From Phycisphaerae bacterium (GTDB taxonomy: Bacteria > Planctomycetota > Phycisphaerae > UBA1845 > PWPN01), in assembly GCA_018003015.1 (NCBI GenBank), contig JAGNEZ010000026.1, positions 1-64,000 of the forward strand: a stretch of DNA of 64,000 nt, in the 5' to 3' direction. Every line of letters starts with the position of its first letter. Position 1 is the first letter of the stretch. The notes beneath the pieces were generated by a model. That model saw nothing but the letters and a program-made list of their open reading frames with translations. It made no database searches and was not told where the DNA came from. The translations under genes were made by a program, and so were the position numbers. Shown here piece after piece: positions 6,395 to 36,605 of the stretch.

Positions 6395-7030
6395 TTACTT
6401 CAGTTCTACATGCCAGTAGGCGTGGTCAAGGAACTGCTTCCAGGACCGGTAACGATGACTCGAGAGTTGCACGGTCAGAGCCGGCGACCGGCGAGGCTTG
6501 GCCGGCAGGACAATCAGCGTCATGCCCGCCTGAACCGGCGTCCGGCCGCCTTTCTTGACGTTGCACTGCAGGCAGCAGCAGACCAGATTGTCCCACGTCG
6601 CCCGGCCGTTCTGACTTCGGGGCACAACGTGGTCCAGACTCAGCTCGCTGGTGGGGAACTTGCGGCCGCAGTACTGGCAGCGATTGCCGTCCCGGGCAAA
6701 GATGTTCCGGCGGTTCAGCTTGACATCCTTGGCCGGCAACCGGTCGTACAACGTCAGCCGGATGATCCGGGGCACCGCCAGACTGAACCGGACCGTCCGC
6801 ACCCAGTCGTACTGGTGCGGCTCGAACCGCTCCTTCAGCTCGGACAACTCGCACCAACTCTCGAAATCGTAGGAGAGATAACGCCCGTCCTCGACGTGCA
6901 CCACCTCGGCCAGGTGGCGATAGAGGAGAGAAAATGCCCGCTTCGCGCTCGTGACGCGAATGGCCATATAGTGCCGGTTCAGAATCAGGACATGACAGTC
7001 AAGCCCTGCTCCCGGACCAAACACCTGCAT
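6395..7030 (-). CDS. HNH endonuclease family protein
   Basis: 211 residues. The C-terminal half has a complete HNH module: CQYC near residue 126, LDHVVPRSQNG, W-NLVCCCLQCN and KKGGRTP. The two CxxC pairs bind structural zinc and the DHV histidine is catalytic. The N-terminal half (VLILNRHY, RVTSAKRAFSLLY) matches the stand-alone HNH family common in bacteria whose role is unknown. The start at 7030 is preferred over an internal ATG at 6967 because family members include the LILNRHY segment. It is preceded by its own promoter candidate and is not part of a restriction system here. Confidence 0.87.
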   Translation of the reverse strand: MQVFGPGAGLDCHVLILNRHYMAIRVTSAKRAFSLLYRHLAEVVHVEDGRYLSYDFESWCELSELKERFEPHQYDWVRTVRFSLAVPRIIRLTLYDRLPAKDVKLNRRNIFARDGNRCQYCGRKFPTSELSLDHVVPRSQNGRATWDNLVCCCLQCNVKKGGRTPVQAGMTLIVLPAKPRRSPALTVQLSSHRYRSWKQFLDHAYWHVELK

Positions 7031-27576: not shown

Positions 27577-28872
27577 CTAAGCGACAAAAGCGGAGGGGGA
27601 ACAGCCGGTTGTCACGCGTGCGGCTCCGCCGCCCAGCTGTTCGGTCAGCAGGCAAGCTTCATCCAGAGGGTCGGACATCTTGATCCTGTGAGCCAGCATG
27701 CGGCAGTTGGCGGCAGTCTCCTTGGATCCGAGGAGGCGGCGCAGCCGGTCCGCTACCTCCGCTCCGCGGTAGCGTCCGGGGTGCAGGGCGTCGCCCACGC
27801 CCAGGCGAATGAGACGAGCCGCGGTGTCGGGCTGATCGTTGCAGATCGGCATGACTAGCTGTGGGATGCCGGCGGCCATGGCTTGGGCGGCTGATCCGAT
27901 GCCCCCGTGATGGACCAGGGCGGCGGCCTGCGGCAGTAGGCGGCTGAATGGGAGATAGTCGAAATGCCGGACTTCGGGAGGCAAGGACTTCGGGACCTGC
28001 TCCGGAAACCGGGTGAGCAGAAGACCGCGACGGCCAAGCAACCGGCAGGCTTCGATCGAGGCCTGGAAGAACCAGCGGACCTCTTGGATCGGCGAGCCCG
28101 GCGTAAACACGATCGGAGGGTCGCCCGCGTCGAGGAACTCGCGGACTTCGCTGGGTAAAGGTTCTATCTCGCCTCCGTCATAACGCGGGAATCCGGTGAG
28201 CCGCACCTGCCGGGGCCAGTCACGCTGCGGCGGACTGAACCACTCCGGGAACAGCCCGATGATCCGGTCAGGCGAGTCCCACCAATGAGAGACAAACCGG
28301 CGGATCGACGGCAGGTTCAGGCGAGCTCGGAACCGGTTGATGGCCGGTCTCAGCATGCGATCGAAAACCGTCAGGTCGATCAAGGTGTAGGCCACCTTGC
28401 GCCATCGCCAGGGTATCCACTGCATGACCGGGAACTCCGAGAGCACGGGCGTTCGGTACACGCTCCGCAATCCGGAAGGGACGGTGTGGATGGTGACCAG
28501 CGGCAGGCCCAGCCTCTCCTGGGCGATCCTTGCCCCGAACGCGTTCCAGCTGGCAGCCGCCACTGTCTCCCCAGGGACGTAGTGCTCGGCGACACGCTCG
28601 TAGATGGGCTCGAGGGTTAGGGGAACGACGCGCTCCGCGAAGGCCCGGAAGGCTTGCCGGTGATGCCACAGCTCGCCGTCACGGATGATGCTCCGGTACT
28701 CCTCGGCGGTGCCCAAAGGCGCGAAATCAAGCCCGGCTTGACGCACCTGCCGCTCGAAGTAGCCGCTGGTGATCGTGGTCACGCGATGGCCGCGAGCTCG
28801 AAGACGCCGGCCGAGCCCAAGATAGGGATGGACGTCACCGGCGGTCCCCAGCGTCACCAGAAGAACATGCAT
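27577..28872 (-). CDS. GT1-family glycosyltransferase, paralogue 3
   Basis: 431 residues. It shares the MHVLLVTLGTAGDVHPYLGLG start, the acceptor-side WWDSPDRIIGLFPEWF segment and the donor motif VHHGGIGSAAQ with NDQPDTAARL. It differs from paralogues 1 and 2 in the donor motif (ICNDQPD in place of GLDQPD), hinting at a different sugar donor. The start is placed at 28872 to match the paralogues; an ATG nine bases earlier (28881) is possible. The C-terminal 20 residues have no counterpart in the others. It is 19 bp after paralogue 4. Confidence 0.87.
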   Translation of the reverse strand: MHVLLVTLGTAGDVHPYLGLGRRLRARGHRVTTITSGYFERQVRQAGLDFAPLGTAEEYRSIIRDGELWHHRQAFRAFAERVVPLTLEPIYERVAEHYVPGETVAAASWNAFGARIAQERLGLPLVTIHTVPSGLRSVYRTPVLSEFPVMQWIPWRWRKVAYTLIDLTVFDRMLRPAINRFRARLNLPSIRRFVSHWWDSPDRIIGLFPEWFSPPQRDWPRQVRLTGFPRYDGGEIEPLPSEVREFLDAGDPPIVFTPGSPIQEVRWFFQASIEACRLLGRRGLLLTRFPEQVPKSLPPEVRHFDYLPFSRLLPQAAALVHHGGIGSAAQAMAAGIPQLVMPICNDQPDTAARLIRLGVGDALHPGRYRGAEVADRLRRLLGSKETAANCRMLAHRIKMSDPLDEACLLTEQLGGGAARVTTGCSPSAFVA

Positions 28873-28891
28873 GGAGGGCATTCTAACTGAA

Positions 28892-30169
28892 CTAACTGGC
28901 TCGGGCTACCCGCCGAGCCGGGCTAAGTGGAAGACCTTCGATGATCTCGCAGGTCGCCGACAGGGGGTTCGCACTTCTGAGTCTGACCGCCGCATTCCTG
29001 CATGCGTCGGCCACCGACCTGACCCCCAACAGCTTGTTGAGACAGCGGGCGACCACCGTGGCCTGGTAGTCCCTGGGCTTGATGGCCAGGGCCACTCCGA
29101 GACGCAGCAGGCGGGCGGCGTTGTCCGGCTGGTCGTTGGTGAAGGGCATGACCAGCTGAGGAATGCCGGCCGCCAAACCCTGGGCCAGCGTGCCGATTCC
29201 GGCATGATGGACCAATGCAGCAGATTTGCCTAGAATAAAGCTAAACGGTATGTAGTCGAAATGCCGAACCGTGGCCGGCAGCGATCTGGGGACTTGCGTA
29301 CGGTCCCGGGTAAGCAGAATACCCCGCCGGCCACACGCGACACAGGCCTTGACCGAGGCATCAAAGAACCAGTCCCAGTTCTGGATGGGGGAGCCGGGGG
29401 TGAAGACTATGGGCGGCTCGCCGGCGGCGAGGAACTCCTCGACGCCGGGTGGGATGGGCTCGACCTCGCCAGCGTCACACAACGGGAAACTGGTGAGCCG
29501 TGTCTGGGCGGGCCAGTCGGGTTGCGGCCGGCCGAACCAGTCGGGGAACAGGCCGATCACCCGCTGCGGCGAGTTCCACCACACGCCCAGGATTCGCCTG
29601 ACGGGGGGCAGACCGAGCTTCGAGCGGAAGGCGTTGATTGGCGGGCCCAGGAGCCGATCCGCCACCAGGGCATCGGCCAGATCGAAAACGGCTCGCTTCC
29701 AGAGTCTGGGCATCCACGGCCGTACTGGCAGACCTGAGACCAGCGGGGACTCGTATTCGCTTCGGAACATCTCCGGCTGCAGGTGGACGGTGGCCAACGG
29801 AATGCCCAGTTTGTCGTGTGCGATTCTGGCCGCAAAGCCAAATCCGCAGGCGGCGATGACCGTATCGTTGGGTACGTATCGCTCGACAATGGCCTCGTAG
29901 GTGGGAGGCAGCATCTGGGGAACCACACGTTGTGCAACGACTTTGAAGTACCGCTTGGGATGCCAGATGTTCGGGTCGTTGATGACCGCCTGATATTCCT
30001 TTTCCGTGCCGAGACCGCAGAAATCGAGACCTATGCGTCGCACCAAAGCCTCGAAGTAGCCGCTGGTGATGATCGTGACCCGGTGACCGCGAGCCTTGAG
30101 CCCGCGTCCCAGCCAGATGTGAGGGTACACATCCCCCGGAGTCCCCACCGGTACCAAGATGACGTGCAT
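28892..30169 (-). CDS. GT1-family glycosyltransferase, paralogue 4
   Basis: 425 residues. It begins MHVILVPVGTPGDVYPHIWLG. Its donor motif reads VHHAGIGTLAQ, with Ala in place of the first Gly found in the other three copies, then GIPQLVMPFTNDQPDNAARL. The FTNDQPD wording groups it with paralogue 3. It is the first glycosyltransferase in the minus-strand operon, 101 bp after the acyltransferase gene. Order of action among the four cannot be deduced. Confidence 0.88.
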   Translation of the reverse strand: MHVILVPVGTPGDVYPHIWLGRGLKARGHRVTIITSGYFEALVRRIGLDFCGLGTEKEYQAVINDPNIWHPKRYFKVVAQRVVPQMLPPTYEAIVERYVPNDTVIAACGFGFAARIAHDKLGIPLATVHLQPEMFRSEYESPLVSGLPVRPWMPRLWKRAVFDLADALVADRLLGPPINAFRSKLGLPPVRRILGVWWNSPQRVIGLFPDWFGRPQPDWPAQTRLTSFPLCDAGEVEPIPPGVEEFLAAGEPPIVFTPGSPIQNWDWFFDASVKACVACGRRGILLTRDRTQVPRSLPATVRHFDYIPFSFILGKSAALVHHAGIGTLAQGLAAGIPQLVMPFTNDQPDNAARLLRLGVALAIKPRDYQATVVARCLNKLLGVRSVADACRNAAVRLRSANPLSATCEIIEGLPLSPARRVARAS

Positions 30170-30270
30170 GAGCGCTTCCCAAAGAGCCGAGGGCGGAGTT
30201 CCCTGACGAGCGTGCGTCCCTCATGATGCATGCGGGCCCCGCCGCCGACACAACGCCCTGATATACAGGA

Positions 30271-31644
30271 TCATGAAGCGTCCAGCAATGCCGCCGCAAA
30301 GTCGTCCATGAGGCGGTTCATGGATGCAGGCGTGATCCGCGACTCCAGGAAGGTCGAGGTCACGTGGAGCTGGCCATGGATCAGGTTGAGGTCGATCGCG
30401 AATCCTGACAGGGGAGGCGGAATACCCAGTCCATAGGTATGGGCCTTGTTGGCGCCGCAGAACGTCGGGAGCAGCGTGGGGGCGTCCGCGGAGAAGCCTA
30501 CCTGCAGCGATGGAGGCGTACCGAAGGCTACTGGGAGGGCGGATTCCCGCTCCGGGTTCATGTTCTGATACATGGCCTCGGTCAGGACGGCTGGTGGGAG
30601 CCTGGAGATCAGCTTCACGAGAGCCAAGTGGCGTCGGATTCCGTCGCCGGACACGATCTGCTCGGTTTGATGGCGCAGAAGGGCCGCCACCGCCTTGCGG
30701 TCCTCGACCATCCTGGCTGGAACACGCAACAGGAGGCCGCTGAAGAGGTTGTGGCAGACGGGCGATCGCTGACGGCGTTTGCGGTGGTCGAGCACGTTGA
30801 GCGTGGAGTAGGTGGCGCCCGGGGGAGGCGGCGAGGGCATGGCCCGGTGCATGGCCCGCAGCGCACTGGCCCGCACGAAGTCGCCGTACTGGGCGAAACC
30901 GCAGACACGCAAGGCGGCTTGCTGCGTCTGCCGGGTTTGCTCGGCGGAGAAGAACCGTCTGATGTGGCGGATACGCCCGATGGGCCGTCGCACCCGTCCG
31001 GCGGGAAGCCACTGGTCATGGCTCGGGATCCCCTTGGACCTGGTGCGGTCTTTGGCCAAGAGTCTGACCTGACCGAGAAGGGTAGGGATTGCGATAAGGG
31101 CCTCGAAATCGCGTCGCTCGTCGTCGCCGGAAGGCCGGATACTGGCCAGGTCGGGTTTCTCACGGTAGATCCGGTCGATGTCCTCGGCGAGGAGAATCAT
31201 CCCGCGGACGTCCATGAACGCGTGAGGCCAGCGAATCACGACCCGGTCGCCATCCGGCAGCCCGCGAAAGACGTGGAACTGCACGGGTGGCAGGGTAATC
31301 AGGTCCATGGGTTCGTGGAGCAGGTCCTCGCCCTGGCGGATCCATTCCTGTTCGGTGGGTGGATCGAGAGAATGGACGCGGACCACGCGGTCCAGGTCTG
31401 GCGGTGCAGCCTCCAGCCGCCAGCGCGGCGTTCCGGTAACGGGGTGGCGGTCCAGCCGGGAGCCCACGGCGGGATACAGGCGGTAAATGGCCAGCAGCGT
31501 GCGTTTGAGTCCCTCCGCATCGATGGGCCCGATCATGTCCAGATGGACCTGGATGTGGATGCCCGGCAGCCCCAGGCGTCTCAACGCCCGGTCGTAGGCG
31601 AAGAACACGCGGTCCTGGGGGTTGAGTTCCGCGAAGCGGGCCAT
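30271..31644 (-). CDS. Condensation-type / PapA-WS-like acyltransferase
   Basis: 457 residues of the CoA-dependent acyltransferase superfamily (condensation, PapA and wax-synthase relatives). The catalytic motif HHxxxDG appears as PHAFMDVRG around residue 140: the second, catalytic His and the Asp are kept, and the first His is Pro. The second half has the usual NVLDHRKRR segment. Such enzymes esterify hydroxyl groups of lipids or sugars with fatty acyl groups. It lies 22 bp after the sulfotransferase and upstream of four glycosyltransferases, so acylation of a glycolipid is a reasonable inference. Confidence 0.78.
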   Translation of the reverse strand: MARFAELNPQDRVFFAYDRALRRLGLPGIHIQVHLDMIGPIDAEGLKRTLLAIYRLYPAVGSRLDRHPVTGTPRWRLEAAPPDLDRVVRVHSLDPPTEQEWIRQGEDLLHEPMDLITLPPVQFHVFRGLPDGDRVVIRWPHAFMDVRGMILLAEDIDRIYREKPDLASIRPSGDDERRDFEALIAIPTLLGQVRLLAKDRTRSKGIPSHDQWLPAGRVRRPIGRIRHIRRFFSAEQTRQTQQAALRVCGFAQYGDFVRASALRAMHRAMPSPPPPGATYSTLNVLDHRKRRQRSPVCHNLFSGLLLRVPARMVEDRKAVAALLRHQTEQIVSGDGIRRHLALVKLISRLPPAVLTEAMYQNMNPERESALPVAFGTPPSLQVGFSADAPTLLPTFCGANKAHTYGLGIPPPLSGFAIDLNLIHGQLHVTSTFLESRITPASMNRLMDDFAAALLDAS

Positions 31645-31665
31645 CGGGGTCTCAGCAGGCCTCCA

Positions 31666-32586
31666 TTATTGCGGGGCGGCGGTTAGAGGCTGAAGCGGGT
31701 TGCGAGATTGCGTTCCCTCGGCCGCAGGTCGATCTTCGGGGCACTCGATGGTGTAGCCGGTCTCGGCGGCCTGGGTGCCGCAGAGCGCCCTGATCGCCCG
31801 CTGGTGGTCGTGGGAGAGGTTCTTACCCCGCCCGACCGAGCTGGTATCCACCGGCTTGGGAGCCTTGAACAGCACTTCCGGCGCGCCGATACCGCCGAAG
31901 CCCGGAGGCATGTGCTTGTGGTCTATCATCCGTTCGTGATAGGGCATGCCGACGCTTTCACAGATCCGCATCATCGCCGAGGCAGGATCCTGGACCAGGT
32001 CTTCGTAGCGAACGATGAACAGCCTGCGGTCCCTGGCCCAGTCCATGAAGTGAGCCCAGTTCCGGGCGGCCCAGCGCACGATGTGTTCGTCGTCGGTGAA
32101 GCGTGGTACGGATGGCCACATCAGGCGGATCAGCACGCCGGTGTAGCCGAAGAACAGCTTGTTCAGCAGTTTCAGCGTGGAGGCGATCGTGTCGCACGGA
32201 TGCCGGGTGATGGCGATGATCGGGTGCCCGGCGGCGGCGAATCCGTCCAGGAGCTCAAAGTTGGCCCAGGGCTTGTTCAGCTCCAGCTCGTGGAAGCACT
32301 CTTTCATGACCAGATAGTTCATCTGGTTGGCCCGGGCCAGGTCCTTCAAATAGGTGAAGTACTCATCGTAGTTGCGCACCCGAGGCATGGGGACACGGAC
32401 CATGCCGGCCCGTTTCAACAGCGACCTGAACCAGTACTTCAGCGCCCAGTGGGGAAGGAGGTCGTCGAGGTGAAAAGGCTCGCTCAGGGACAAAACCTTG
32501 TCGCCGCCGCCCATGAGCTTGGCCAGCAGCGTGGTGCCTGTCCGTGGCGGACCGACGATGAAGATCGGCTTGACGTCCGGCATCAT
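31666..32586 (-). CDS. PAPS-dependent sulfotransferase
   Basis: 306 residues. The 5'-phosphosulfate loop is FIVGPPRTGTTLLAK near the N-terminus and the 3'-phosphate site is AITRHPCDTIAS near residue 135, both complete. RYEDLVQDP is the third family landmark. It transfers sulfate from PAPS to a hydroxyl or amino group; some single-domain homologues in glycolipid clusters act on sugars. It is the first gene of the minus-strand operon. The C-terminal 40 residues are disordered-looking. Sulfation of the glycolipid is inferred from context. Confidence 0.88.
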   Translation of the reverse strand: MMPDVKPIFIVGPPRTGTTLLAKLMGGGDKVLSLSEPFHLDDLLPHWALKYWFRSLLKRAGMVRVPMPRVRNYDEYFTYLKDLARANQMNYLVMKECFHELELNKPWANFELLDGFAAAGHPIIAITRHPCDTIASTLKLLNKLFFGYTGVLIRLMWPSVPRFTDDEHIVRWAARNWAHFMDWARDRRLFIVRYEDLVQDPASAMMRICESVGMPYHERMIDHKHMPPGFGGIGAPEVLFKAPKPVDTSSVGRGKNLSHDHQRAIRALCGTQAAETGYTIECPEDRPAAEGTQSRNPLQPLTAAPQ

Positions 32587-32952: not shown

Positions 32953-33225
32953 TCAGAAACATGCGGACAAGGGGCCAAGCAGTGCCAGACTGACGATTCC
33001 CACCGCGGTCAGGGCGATCGCCAGGATCGCCGGCCACTTGTCCAGGTCCCTGGCGAGTCCCAGCGTCCCGAGGATCAGCGCAATCGGAAGGGTGACGATG
33101 GTGAGGCATCCTCCAAGGATGCCGCGTGGGTCACCTCAGCCAGGCTTGAGGAAATGCTGGGCGAACAACGCAACGACGCCGATGCACGAGAAGACGATTG
33201 CCCTCTTGCCAAATCGAGCTTTCAT
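32953..33225 (-). CDS. Candidate small membrane selenoprotein (in-frame TGA), next to selB
   Basis: A conventional reading stops after 29 codons at TGA 33136-33138. Read through as selenocysteine, the frame gives 90 residues to TGA 32953-32955. Both parts are strongly hydrophobic in the same frame: helix 1 about residues 9-27, helix 2 about 41-58, helix 3 about 66-84, with the Sec at 30 in a short loop (LKPG-U-GDPRG) and Cys at 14, 40 and 89. Third-position GC is about 77% after the TGA, like neighbouring genes, and the second part has no start codon of its own near the TGA. A perfect hairpin follows the TGA. The gene begins 45 bp after selB on the same strand, with GGAG 12 bases upstream of ATG 33225. 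Function is unknown; a redox-active loop is inferred. Confidence 0.68.
33105..33123 (-). promoter_or_regulatory. Candidate bacterial SECIS hairpin, small membrane protein
   Basis: On the minus strand GGCATCC (33123-33117) pairs perfectly with GGATGCC (33111-33105) around a TTGGA loop. It begins 12 bases after the in-frame TGA, the distance at which SelB-binding hairpins occur. The loop shares the UGG word with the hairpin of the other candidate. Confidence 0.6.
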
Positions 33226-33269: not shown

Positions 33270-35186
33270 TCAACCGCTCACTCCGACGCGAAGGTAGCGT
33301 GTGTTGTTCACCCGCCGGGTAAGCCCGGTGCGGTCAAAGTAGTCCAAGAGCGGGAGAGCGAACTTGCGGGTCGTATCCAGCAAGTACTTGAACCTGACGC
33401 TTTCCAGACGCCCCTGGTCGCGGATGAAGTCTACCAGAAGCTGGCGGGCCTTCGCCACGGCTTGGTGATGGAAGACCATGTCCGGACCGACGCGGGTGAG
33501 CCGGTTCTGCTGCAGCAGAATCCTGATGGCCGGCGCCACCTGGTCGATGGCCGCGCCGGTGAGCCTCGCCAGTTCCTCGGGCTCGGGAGGGCTGAAGAGA
33601 CGTTCGAGGAACAGCGTCTCGATCTGTTCGATGAGTCGCCGCTGATCGTCGGTGAACTGTTCGCGGTGGCCGGCCAGAGCCAGGCTCTGGCTGCGCCGGA
33701 CAAGAGTACCGGACGCGAGAGACAGCTCGACGATGTCCTTGAACAACTCCCTGGACCATCCGGTCAGGCCGTGCAGCTCATCGGCATCGGGCCCCGGTCG
33801 TTCGGGTGCACGCCGGTGAAAGTCTTCGAGCAGGCTCGCCAGCCGCCGGCTCAATTCGGCGGTCGTGTGGCGATGTGCGTATCGCCCGGAGGTCAGCCTG
33901 AGGACGCTCCCCCCCTTCGCGAGATCGGCGAGGATGGCCTGCAGCCGGGAAAGCGGCACCTTGGCCCGGCGGGCAAGCTCGGCCTCGGTGGCCGAATGAT
34001 CGGTGGCTCGTCTGATACAGTATTCAACAAAGCGATTCCCGTCGCCGACCGCCTGAGCGCGTTCGGCCAGATCCTGGAGGAGCTCCGGCCGGCCTCGCCT
34101 GGCTCGTTGGGAGACGCCCTCAATGATCGTTCCACCGCCGATCGTCTGGACCGGCGACAAGGACCGGAGGATGAACCGATCGCCGGGGGCGGCCACCAGC
34201 GGTCGAGATGACCGGACCTGGACCAGCCCCTGTTCCCCGGACTTCATCCGCTCGGAATCCAGAAGGTAGACGGTGGCCATGACCTCGGAGGTTCCGGTGT
34301 GCAGCTTGACCTGCGATGCGTTCTTGAGCTGGGTACGTTCGTGCGGGAGAAGCTGCAGGTGACAGAAGAACCACTGCTGGGCCTCGAAGAAACCGGGGAC
34401 GGCCACGGTGCAGCCCCGGTCGATGGCGTGGTGGTCCCACTGCCGCACGTTGAGGGCGACGCACTGGCCGGCCACGGCGGCGTCTCCCGGGTGCTGGTAG
34501 ACCTGGATGGCGCTGATCCGCCCGGTCAGTTCTTCGGGAAGCAGGGTGACTTCGTCTCCGATCCGGGCGGTGCCTGAAACCGGAATGCCGCTGACCACGG
34601 TGCCGAAGCCCTTGATGGAGAAGGTCCGCTCGATCGGCATTCGGAACACGCCGTCGGTGGGCTTGCGGCGAAGACGGGCCACCAGGTCCTGAAGGGCGGT
34701 GACCAGCTCGCCGAAGCCGTCGCCGTTCAGGTTGGATACGCCGACAATGGGGGCGTTCTCCAGGAAAGTGCCGCCCAGGAAATCGCGGATCTCGGACCGG
34801 ACCCTTTCGGCCTGCTCACCCGGCACGCGGTCGATCTTGGTCAAGGCCACCACGCCCGCCTGAGTACCCAGCAGCGTGAGAATGTCGAAGTGCTCGCGGG
34901 TCTGGGGCATGATCCCGTCGTCGGCGGCAATGACGAAGATCACCCCATCGATTCCGCTGGCTCCGGCGACCATGGTCTTGATGAAGTGCTCATGTCCAGG
35001 GACGTCCACGATACCGACCTGCGTGCCGGCTACCGTGCAGGGGGCAAAGCCCAGCTCGATGGACATGCCCCGTTCTTTCTCCTCTTTCAGGTGATCCGTG
35101 TCGCAGCCGGTCAGGTTCTTGACCAGCGCGGTCTTGCCGTGGTCGATATGGCCGGCGGTGCCCAGCGTGATGTTGATCCGCTCCAT
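33270..35186 (-). CDS. selB: Selenocysteine-specific elongation factor SelB
   Basis: 638 residues. It delivers Sec-tRNA to ribosomes at UGA codons marked by a SECIS hairpin. GTPase motifs are GHIDHGKT (residues 12-19), DVPGHEHF and TKID, followed by beta-barrel domains and C-terminal winged helices (about residues 400-638) that bind the SECIS RNA. The first residues ([19 protein letters not shown]) fix the start. It follows selA by nine bases and precedes a small frame with an in-frame TGA by 45 bases, so the three probably share a transcript. Confidence 0.96.
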
Positions 35187-35195
35187 CTGGTTACC

Positions 35196-36605
35196 TCAAG
35201 CCTGGCAGGCCGCGACCACGGTCTCGATGAGCGGCTGCTCGTCGTCGGCAAACAGGGTGCGGGAATCGATCAGGACCCGGCCCGCGTGGGTGCGGGCAAA
35301 GACCGGCGGTTGCCCGAGTCGCATGCGGCGGGCCAGCTCTCCGGCCTCCATTCGCACCGGGGCAATGGCCACCACCGTGGTGGCCAGCTTCTGCTCCGGC
35401 AGGGATCCGCTGCCCATCTGCGAGAAACCAGCTTCGGTCGTCACCTTCGCCTCGGACAGGCGAGCGGCCAGGGCAAGAGCAATCCGGTCGGCCTGGGCGG
35501 CGACATCAGTTGGCTCGCGCATGAGCATCGCCAGGGTCGGCACTTCACGAAAGGCACGGCACTCGTCGAGGAACAGAGCAAGCGTGGCCTCCAGGATCGC
35601 CAGGGTCACCTTGTCCACTCGGACGGCTCGGGCCAGAGGGTTCTTGCGTACCTGGGTAATGAGCTTCGCCTGGCCCAGGATGATCCCGCCCTGGGAGGCG
35701 CCGATCAGCTTGTCGGCGCTGCAAGTGATGATGTCCGCCCCGGTGGCGACGGAGTCGGCCAATCTGGGCTCGGGCTCGAAACCGAATCGGGCGAAGTCGA
35801 TCAACGCCCCCGCGCCCAGGTCATCGATCAGCGCCAGTCCGTGGTCGTGGGCGATTCGCTCCAGATCCGCCAGCGGAACCTCGGCGGTGAAACCCTGGAT
35901 GCGGTAGTTGCTCGGATGCACCCGCATGATGGCCACGGTTTCGGGCGTGATCGCGCTCTCGTAGTCGCGGGCGTGTGTCTTGTTCGTCGTTCCGACTTCG
36001 ACGAGCCTGGCCCCGCTGGCGGCCATGACATCGGGCAGGCGAAACGAGCCTCCGATCTCGACGAGTTGCCCGCGAGAGACGATCACTTCGCGGCCCTTGG
36101 CGAGCGTACTAAGCACGATCATCGTGGCGGCCGCGTTGTTGTTGACTACGGTGGCCGCTTCGGCTCCGGTGAGTCGCTGGAGGAGCCATTCGATGCGCTC
36201 GTCTCGCCGCGACCGCTGGCCGGTCTCGGTGTCGATTTGCAGGACCGAATAGCCCTGCAACTCGCGTCCCACCTGGTCGAGGGCTGCCTTGGCCAGTACG
36301 GCGCGTCCCAGCCCAGTGTGCAGAATGATCCCCGTCGCATTGATCGCACGGCGGTAGTGGGGGCCGGTTGCAGTGCGGGCCATCTCCAGGACGCGGGCGA
36401 TGACGCTGCCGCGGATGGCGTCAGAGGCAGTGCCACATTGGGTGCCGGCCAGGAGTCGTTGCCTGGCCTCGCTGACCGCGACGCGAACGGCCTCGACCAC
36501 GATCTGGCGAGGCAGCCGGGCCAGGCAGTCCTGCAGCTCGGTTTCCTGGAGGAGAGCATCAACCGAGGGCAGGGAACGCAGTGTATCTTGGCGCGAAGCC
36601 GGCAT
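35196..36605 (-). CDS. selA: L-seryl-tRNA(Sec) selenium transferase SelA
   Basis: 469 residues of the PLP-dependent fold. It converts seryl-tRNA(Sec) to selenocysteyl-tRNA(Sec) with selenophosphate. The family signature around the PLP lysine is TCSADKLIGASQGGIILG near residue 300; NATGIILHTGLGRA and NNNAAA are further landmarks. It leads the selA-selB operon and is divergent from a second in-frame-TGA gene, with a 308-bp spacer. selC and selD are not in the window, so the pathway is completed elsewhere in the genome. Confidence 0.96.
   Translation of the reverse strand: MPASRQDTLRSLPSVDALLQETELQDCLARLPRQIVVEAVRVAVSEARQRLLAGTQCGTASDAIRGSVIARVLEMARTATGPHYRRAINATGIILHTGLGRAVLAKAALDQVGRELQGYSVLQIDTETGQRSRRDERIEWLLQRLTGAEAATVVNNNAAATMIVLSTLAKGREVIVSRGQLVEIGGSFRLPDVMAASGARLVEVGTTNKTHARDYESAITPETVAIMRVHPSNYRIQGFTAEVPLADLERIAHDHGLALIDDLGAGALIDFARFGFEPEPRLADSVATGADIITCSADKLIGASQGGIILGQAKLITQVRKNPLARAVRVDKVTLAILEATLALFLDECRAFREVPTLAMLMREPTDVAAQADRIALALAARLSEAKVTTEAGFSQMGSGSLPEQKLATTVVAIAPVRMEAGELARRMRLGQPPVFARTHAGRVLIDSRTLFADDEQPLIETVVAACQA

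Follow-up and report, generated by a model that had tools for sequence, protein, structure and literature searches.

Known bacterial selenoproteins and family searches

A bacterial SECIS element is a hairpin located just downstream of the UGA codon, with a G near the start of its apical loop. Known bacterial SECIS-dependent selenoproteins combine an in-frame UGA, a SECIS-type hairpin directly downstream and the factors SelA, SelB, SelD and tRNA-Sec, and the small membrane protein gene described here resembles them in all of these features. According to the accessible part of PMC12013277, all known selenoproteins seem to have Cys homologs, and the discovery method of that study may itself miss families that have none. 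The small membrane selenoprotein differs from the known proteins in this respect, as no Cys homolog of it was found.

A 2026 review (PMC13188914) gives 119 bacterial selenoprotein families or subfamilies in its Table 1, and none of them is recognisable as this membrane selenoprotein. The table includes the Sec-containing mercuric transport protein (PF02411) and the YeeE/YedE transporter (PF04143). The likeness lies in their being transport-related selenoproteins; however, their motifs, C/SxxU and GUxSG, differ from PGUG[DNS]P of the small membrane selenoprotein, and a Pfam search with 58 members at E 0.01 gave no match to either family. YedE has been linked to selenium use (PMC5322559, accessible part). 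The selenium-linked genes named there are YedE, YedF, a LysR-type regulator and DUF3343, none of which is the small membrane selenoprotein. A literature search whose scope lay outside bioRxiv and most subscription papers, with sources accessible in part, returned no description of the family.

Searches of Pfam, NCBIfam, PHROGs and PDB sequences found no family above chance. In the NCBIfam scan of 58 members, no catalogued selenoprotein family scored above its model cut-off; the matches at E 0.01 were limited to a model of the membrane protein TcpD (three members, lowest E 0.0016) and a model of acylphosphatase (one member). DUF6223 (PF19733) matched the protein weakly (15.5–15.6 bits), but this is below its gathering score of 27.4 bits, and only 1 of 22 members matched it. 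Judged from their sequences, the small polytopic membrane selenoproteins look like a new, overlooked family. Spread across nine or more families of a single phylum and having yielded no Cys form, it illustrates what discovery based on Cys homologs can overlook.

The gene and its surroundings

The window, that is, the whole stretch of DNA analysed here, comprises 64,000 nucleotides from a Phycisphaerae bacterium, and its relevant features are collected in Table 1. On the minus strand, selA and selB are followed, after a gap of 44 bases, by the small gene, whose ATG begins at 33225. Its first TGA occupies 33138–33136 and its stop is a second TGA at 32955–32953. The readthrough product has 90 residues, including Sec30 and Cys40: MKARFGKRAIVFSCIGVVALFAQHFLKPG-U-GDPRGILGGCLTIVTLPIALILGTLGLARDLDKWPAILAIALTAVGIVSLALLGPLSACF. 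The initial annotation had described a frame of this length with an in-frame TGA directly behind selB on the same strand, which coordinates and translation confirm. Taking the comparisons below together, 33225–32953 very probably encodes a Sec-decoded small three-helix membrane protein, a judgement that leaves its function aside, and decoding of the TGA at 33138–33136 as Sec can be regarded as virtually certain.

Table 1. Positions of the selenium-related genes and of the elements of the small gene in the window.
Feature	Position	Strand	Evidence
selA, selenocysteine synthase	35196..36605	minus	Pfam PF03841, E 5.5e-137
selB, selenocysteine-specific elongation factor, stop TGA	33270..35186	minus	Pfam GTP_EFTU and SelB-wing_3
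Small membrane selenoprotein gene (very probable)	32953..33225	minus	TGA-bearing homologs at same codon; purifying selection on both sides of TGA
In-frame TGA, predicted selenocysteine 30	33136..33138	minus	Sole invariant column in 58 aligned homologs, all selected for TGA
SECIS-type hairpin, 7 bp, loop TTGGA	33105..33123	minus	Covariation over 57 sites; fold
Helix 1, residues 5-26	33148..33213	minus	AlphaFold2 model, hydropathy
Helix 2, residues 33-59	33049..33129	minus	AlphaFold2 model
Helix 3, residues 64-88	32962..33036	minus	AlphaFold2 model
Cys89 near C-terminus, candidate partner of Sec30	32959..32961	minus	Cys in last 8 residues of 30/58 homologs

The hairpin of the window, GGCATCC-TTGGA-GGATGCC (33123–33105), is separated from the TGA by the 12 bases 33135–33124. 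The RNA fold closes an additional U-A pair, which leaves UGG as the loop, with a z-score of −3.0. The perfect 7-bp stem noted earlier at this distance was thus found again. An Rfam search of the window at the gathering threshold gave no match. In a generic scan for a TGA in an open frame followed by a perfect stem of at least 7 bp with a G in the loop, the 1757 TGAs of the window gave three matches, two of which are the same hairpin of the small gene; ten first-order random sequences gave 0 to 6 matches (mean 1.9). The pattern of TGA plus hairpin in the window alone is no better than chance. By comparison with relatives, the observation is overwhelmingly beyond chance.

The genome of the window contains selA, selB, selD (368 bits) and tRNA-Sec (72.5 bits), that is, the complete set of Sec machinery genes sought. 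One contig (G000:C9:120419–121977) contains both tRNA-Sec and selD, separated by about 540 bases, and selAB is on a different contig. Beyond the small gene, the minus strand of the window (27577–32586) contains two similar glycosyltransferase-like frames, one acyltransferase-like frame and one sulfotransferase-like frame, all named by reading the sequence.

Homologs in Planctomycetota

A search of 101 relatives with the window protein found homologs in six genomes of the same family (G000, G001, G004, G007, G010 and G012), each with a single TGA, which is located at the same codon. A gene that is 96% identical also occurs in JAKLEZ010000001.1, a Planctomycetota MAG. In profile searches, TGA-type homologs were recovered from the class (22 of 397 genomes) and from the families f23 (30 of 89 genomes) and f21 (9 of 39 genomes). 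Altogether 35 genomes of the class were matched, 13 of them solely without a stop, and among these only G151 scored well. At the phylum level, 13 of 392 genomes were matched, eight of them (including G000 and G149) by accepted TGA-type matches. The carriers amount to 52 genomes from at least nine families (f1, f17, f21, f23, f37, f47, f59, f60 and f74), and one of them, G588, is represented by a fragment ended by a contig edge. Searches of plasmids and phages with tblastn found no homolog, and a scan of viral contigs with one homolog gave no match. SECIS-model matches elsewhere in G000 and G001 (23.5 bits, C54 and C23) were set aside because no convincing gene was found there.

Conservation of the protein and the hairpin

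The protein alignment contains 58 of the 62 TGA-bearing matches (L191, L195, L202 and the second L182 match were omitted), and three non-TGA matches (a G792 copy, G775 C4 and G701) were excluded from both the alignment and the pair count. The Sec column alone is invariant, which is partly due to the selection of rows for TGA. Gly6, Pro28, Gly29, Leu37, Asp60 and Ala66 are nearly invariant. Between two congeners, 263 of the 273 bases of the gene are identical versus 164 of 201 aligned columns just past its stop, and the Ka/Ks ratio past the TGA is 0.20–0.64 in all ten pairs of close homologs. The TGA is conserved as a coding position, and the protein is conserved on both sides of it.

The hairpin is conserved at the RNA level as well. 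Already in the first six sequences, double changes were observed at five of the seven stem pairs. Over 57 aligned sites, 91.2% of 399 stem cells are paired, and double changes occur at all seven pairs (99 cells); when the partner strand was slid by 1–3 columns as a control, only 33–52% were paired. Because the bases of the hairpin also encode protein, this covariation runs against the coding constraint. In 56 of 62 sites, the loop starts with TTG exactly 19 nt past the TGA, so that both covariation and the position of the loop G agree with a bacterial SECIS element. The pair count covers 57 of the 62 TGA-bearing sites: in L191 the hairpin is located 3–4 nt later, in L192 the stem is in another register, L195 is truncated by a contig end, and L202 and the second L182 match are relics.

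The proposal in the initial annotation of a new small membrane selenoprotein with Sec30 is supported by the TGA-bearing homologs, the covarying hairpin and the selection past the TGA. Its suggestion of Cys40 as a nearby cysteine applies to the window protein but not to the family, as only 5 of 58 homologs have this residue; Cys40 was therefore ruled out as a family-wide redox partner. Cysteines are more frequent at the C-terminus: 30 of 58 homologs have one in the last 8 residues, where the share of Cys is 6.7%; for the inner loop and the inner part of helix 1, this share is 0.7% and 0.8%, respectively. In 15 of 58 homologs, a cysteine occurs among the 10 residues preceding Sec. Some Cys besides Sec is found near the predicted outer face in 40 of 58 homologs and none in the remaining 18; therefore, a Sec-Cys couple cannot be universal.

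Structure and topology

The AlphaFold2 model of the window protein (mean pLDDT 70.7) is of middling confidence. Its three helices, residues 5–26, 33–59 and 64–88, agree with hydropathy and with the three hydrophobic helices recognised earlier. A Foldseek search with this model gave no match at E ≤ 0.001 but only generic helical bundles, and VIA-align likewise listed generic helical bundles with Z up to 9.3, within the helical-bundle range; these fold matches are uninformative. The number of Lys and Arg residues on the predicted inner side (the N-terminus and the loop between helices 2 and 3) is higher in 57 of 58 rows and equal in one, and the Sec loop is therefore predicted to be outside. The N-terminus and the helix 2–3 loop are thus likely cytoplasmic, and the Sec loop (PGU-G-[DNS]-P) and the C-terminus are placed at the outer face with good confidence.

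Relation to the Sec machinery

At 33 of 58 loci, selB is located no more than 500 bases upstream on the same strand. This count comprises 31 loci identified by ORF clusters, including the G016 relic, and L173 and L174, identified by tblastn; it excludes L186, in which selB is 2.25 kb upstream, and contig ends interrupt several of the remaining loci. Two main clades, of 43 and 15 rows, make up the tree. In the larger clade, 35 rows are labelled as next to selB, a label that includes L186. No member of the 15-row clade is behind selB, its motif is mostly PGFGUGSP, and in G665 of this clade selB is located downstream of the gene. The run of selA and selB in many planctomycetes thereby gains a third gene, and this linkage points to a selenium-related role.

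Most carriers also have the machinery itself. In the class sample, selB is present in 151 of 397 genomes versus 21 of 22 carriers, the exception being G386. A tRNA-Sec above the Rfam cut-off was detected in 41 of 52 carriers versus none of 20 relatives without the gene, which were hand-picked from f21 and f23 with their selB status disregarded. Eight of the 11 carriers without a detected tRNA-Sec have selB; the remaining three (G386, G765 and G796) are draft genomes of 78–92% completeness. Among the 101 relatives, selB occurs in 89 and the small gene in only 6. Because many relatives with selB do not have the gene, it is not a part of the core Sec machinery.

In one subgroup of f23 (L152, L154, L155, L157, L159, L161 and L181), a conserved gene pair is located downstream of the small gene. 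Of the two encoded proteins, one is small and regulator-like and the other is a large membrane protein; they look like BlaI/BlaR-type proteins.

Possible function and alternative explanations

Given the conserved UGA, the covarying SECIS-type hairpin, the Sec machinery and the position after selA-selB, the availability of Sec-tRNA and SelB would allow the ribosome to insert Sec and to complete a three-helix inner-membrane protein, which in the main clade is usually encoded by the third gene after selA-selB; when Sec-tRNA or SelB is unavailable, a 29-residue stub would result. Possible reaction partners of the selenol at the outer face are small oxidants, thiol-disulfides and selenium compounds. 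Where a C-terminal Cys or a Cys just before Sec is present, it could resolve the selenol via a selenenylsulfide; otherwise, soluble thiols could do so. We tentatively propose that the function is redox or selenium chemistry at the outer face of the membrane; it ranks first among the functional readings, followed by transport or hand-over of selenium and then by a read-out of Sec supply.

The same selenoprotein may serve in the uptake or export of selenium or in its hand-over to the SelD-SelA route, with Sec binding selenium at the membrane as a perselenide or selenenylsulfide. The operon-like place of the gene, which follows selAB in 33 of 58 cases, is consistent with such a job, as is the failure to find any Cys replacement, which is expected if Sec alone can serve. 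However, the 15-row clade is not behind selB, most relatives with selB do not have the gene, and no Pfam transporter was matched; we therefore consider this role unlikely. It is improbable that the protein is instead a read-out of Sec supply, made in full length only when Sec-tRNA is available and thereby signalling this state. The position behind selAB, Sec as the sole invariant residue (in rows selected for TGA) and the missing Cys form would agree with this, but the neighbourhoods share no conserved signalling partner or regulated target.

A different possibility concerns the product itself. The 29-residue stub might be the functional molecule, and the hairpin and the downstream part might be kept as an RNA or a regulatory element of selAB, as the strong RNA-level conservation of the hairpin and the frequent position after selAB could suggest. 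Against this, both clades show conservation at the protein level across helices 2 and 3 as well, the gene is located behind selAB and not ahead of it, and one clade is not behind selB at all, so that this explanation is highly improbable. The view that the TGA is an ordinary stop, and that the frame beyond it is a gene in decay or hydrophobic by chance, could draw on the chance level of the pattern within the window and on the one true relic behind selB in G016; it is scarcely credible and, by the comparison, already refuted, since 58 homologs have a TGA at one codon with the frame open beyond it, Ka/Ks is below 0.65 in 10 of 10 pairs and the hairpin covaries. A genome-wide reassignment of TGA, or its reading by a suppressor tRNA without Sec, found no support in our analysis and has a negligible probability, because both selB and the small gene end in TGA, which indicates that the code is not reassigned, and because a SECIS-type hairpin follows the in-frame TGA and tRNA-Sec is present.

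Returning to a Sec-decoded protein with its Sec at the outer face, the family may be one in which Sec cannot be replaced by Cys, kept behind selAB, with selenium-specific chemistry or a report of selenium status at that face, and it may help to keep the Sec trait in Planctomycetota; we regard this wider idea as possible but somewhat doubtful. Whether the protein has a task for which Sec is indispensable, and whether it helps to maintain the Sec trait, have become testable questions.

Losses, replacements of Sec and additional copies

No Cys-for-Sec homolog was present among the accepted matches of the profile and protein searches, which covered Planctomycetota only. The search profile carried Cys at the Sec column; Cys forms would therefore have scored well, and their absence is meaningful in the sampled Planctomycetota. 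The initial annotation had named Cys at position 30 in relatives as possible support, and it was never found; Leu, Tyr or nothing alignable was observed instead. Four relatives do not have Sec: a G792 copy has Leu, G701 has Tyr, and a G775 copy and the distant match in G151 are without the motif. A match in G614 with Cys at the Sec column was set aside as chance because it sits in a long frame that is transporter-like by sequence, and other non-stop matches were set aside because of weak E-values and their positions inside long frames.

G792 (L164, near 6130) has two copies in tandem. In the first, TTA (Leu) takes the place of the TGA, and the hairpin is damaged with the loss of pairs; the neighbouring copy has an intact Sec codon. 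In G016 (L202, Sec codon at minus-strand offset 7595), a relic directly behind selB retains the TGA, the motif and a shortened hairpin of 4–5 bp; helix 1 is shortened, and the frame past GGLL is unrelated. The relic and the Sec-to-Leu copy show that the gene can be lost. In the translated search downstream of selB in relatives that had been suggested as a check, conservation was found for the residues past the TGA, for the hairpin and for the location of the gene behind selB. The contrary outcome, an unconserved or decaying frame, was limited to the relic in G016 and to an additional tandem copy in G798. This second copy (L182, plus strand, near 6451), located behind an intact one, reads QPG-U-IG-U-PRTVLAG, with two TGAs close together ahead of the hairpin, and is apparently decayed.

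Tandem pairs of Sec-type homologs behind selB were observed in L152, L151 and L153 (G802, G370 and G795, respectively). In G004, a second small frame (L011:966–1190, minus strand), MTKLKTLSLTGLTLAALCALVFTGGC-U-SHSRSVLGGC..., immediately follows the homolog. It has the same layout of TGA and hairpin without helices 2 and 3, and it is perhaps a partial duplicate or another selenoprotein.
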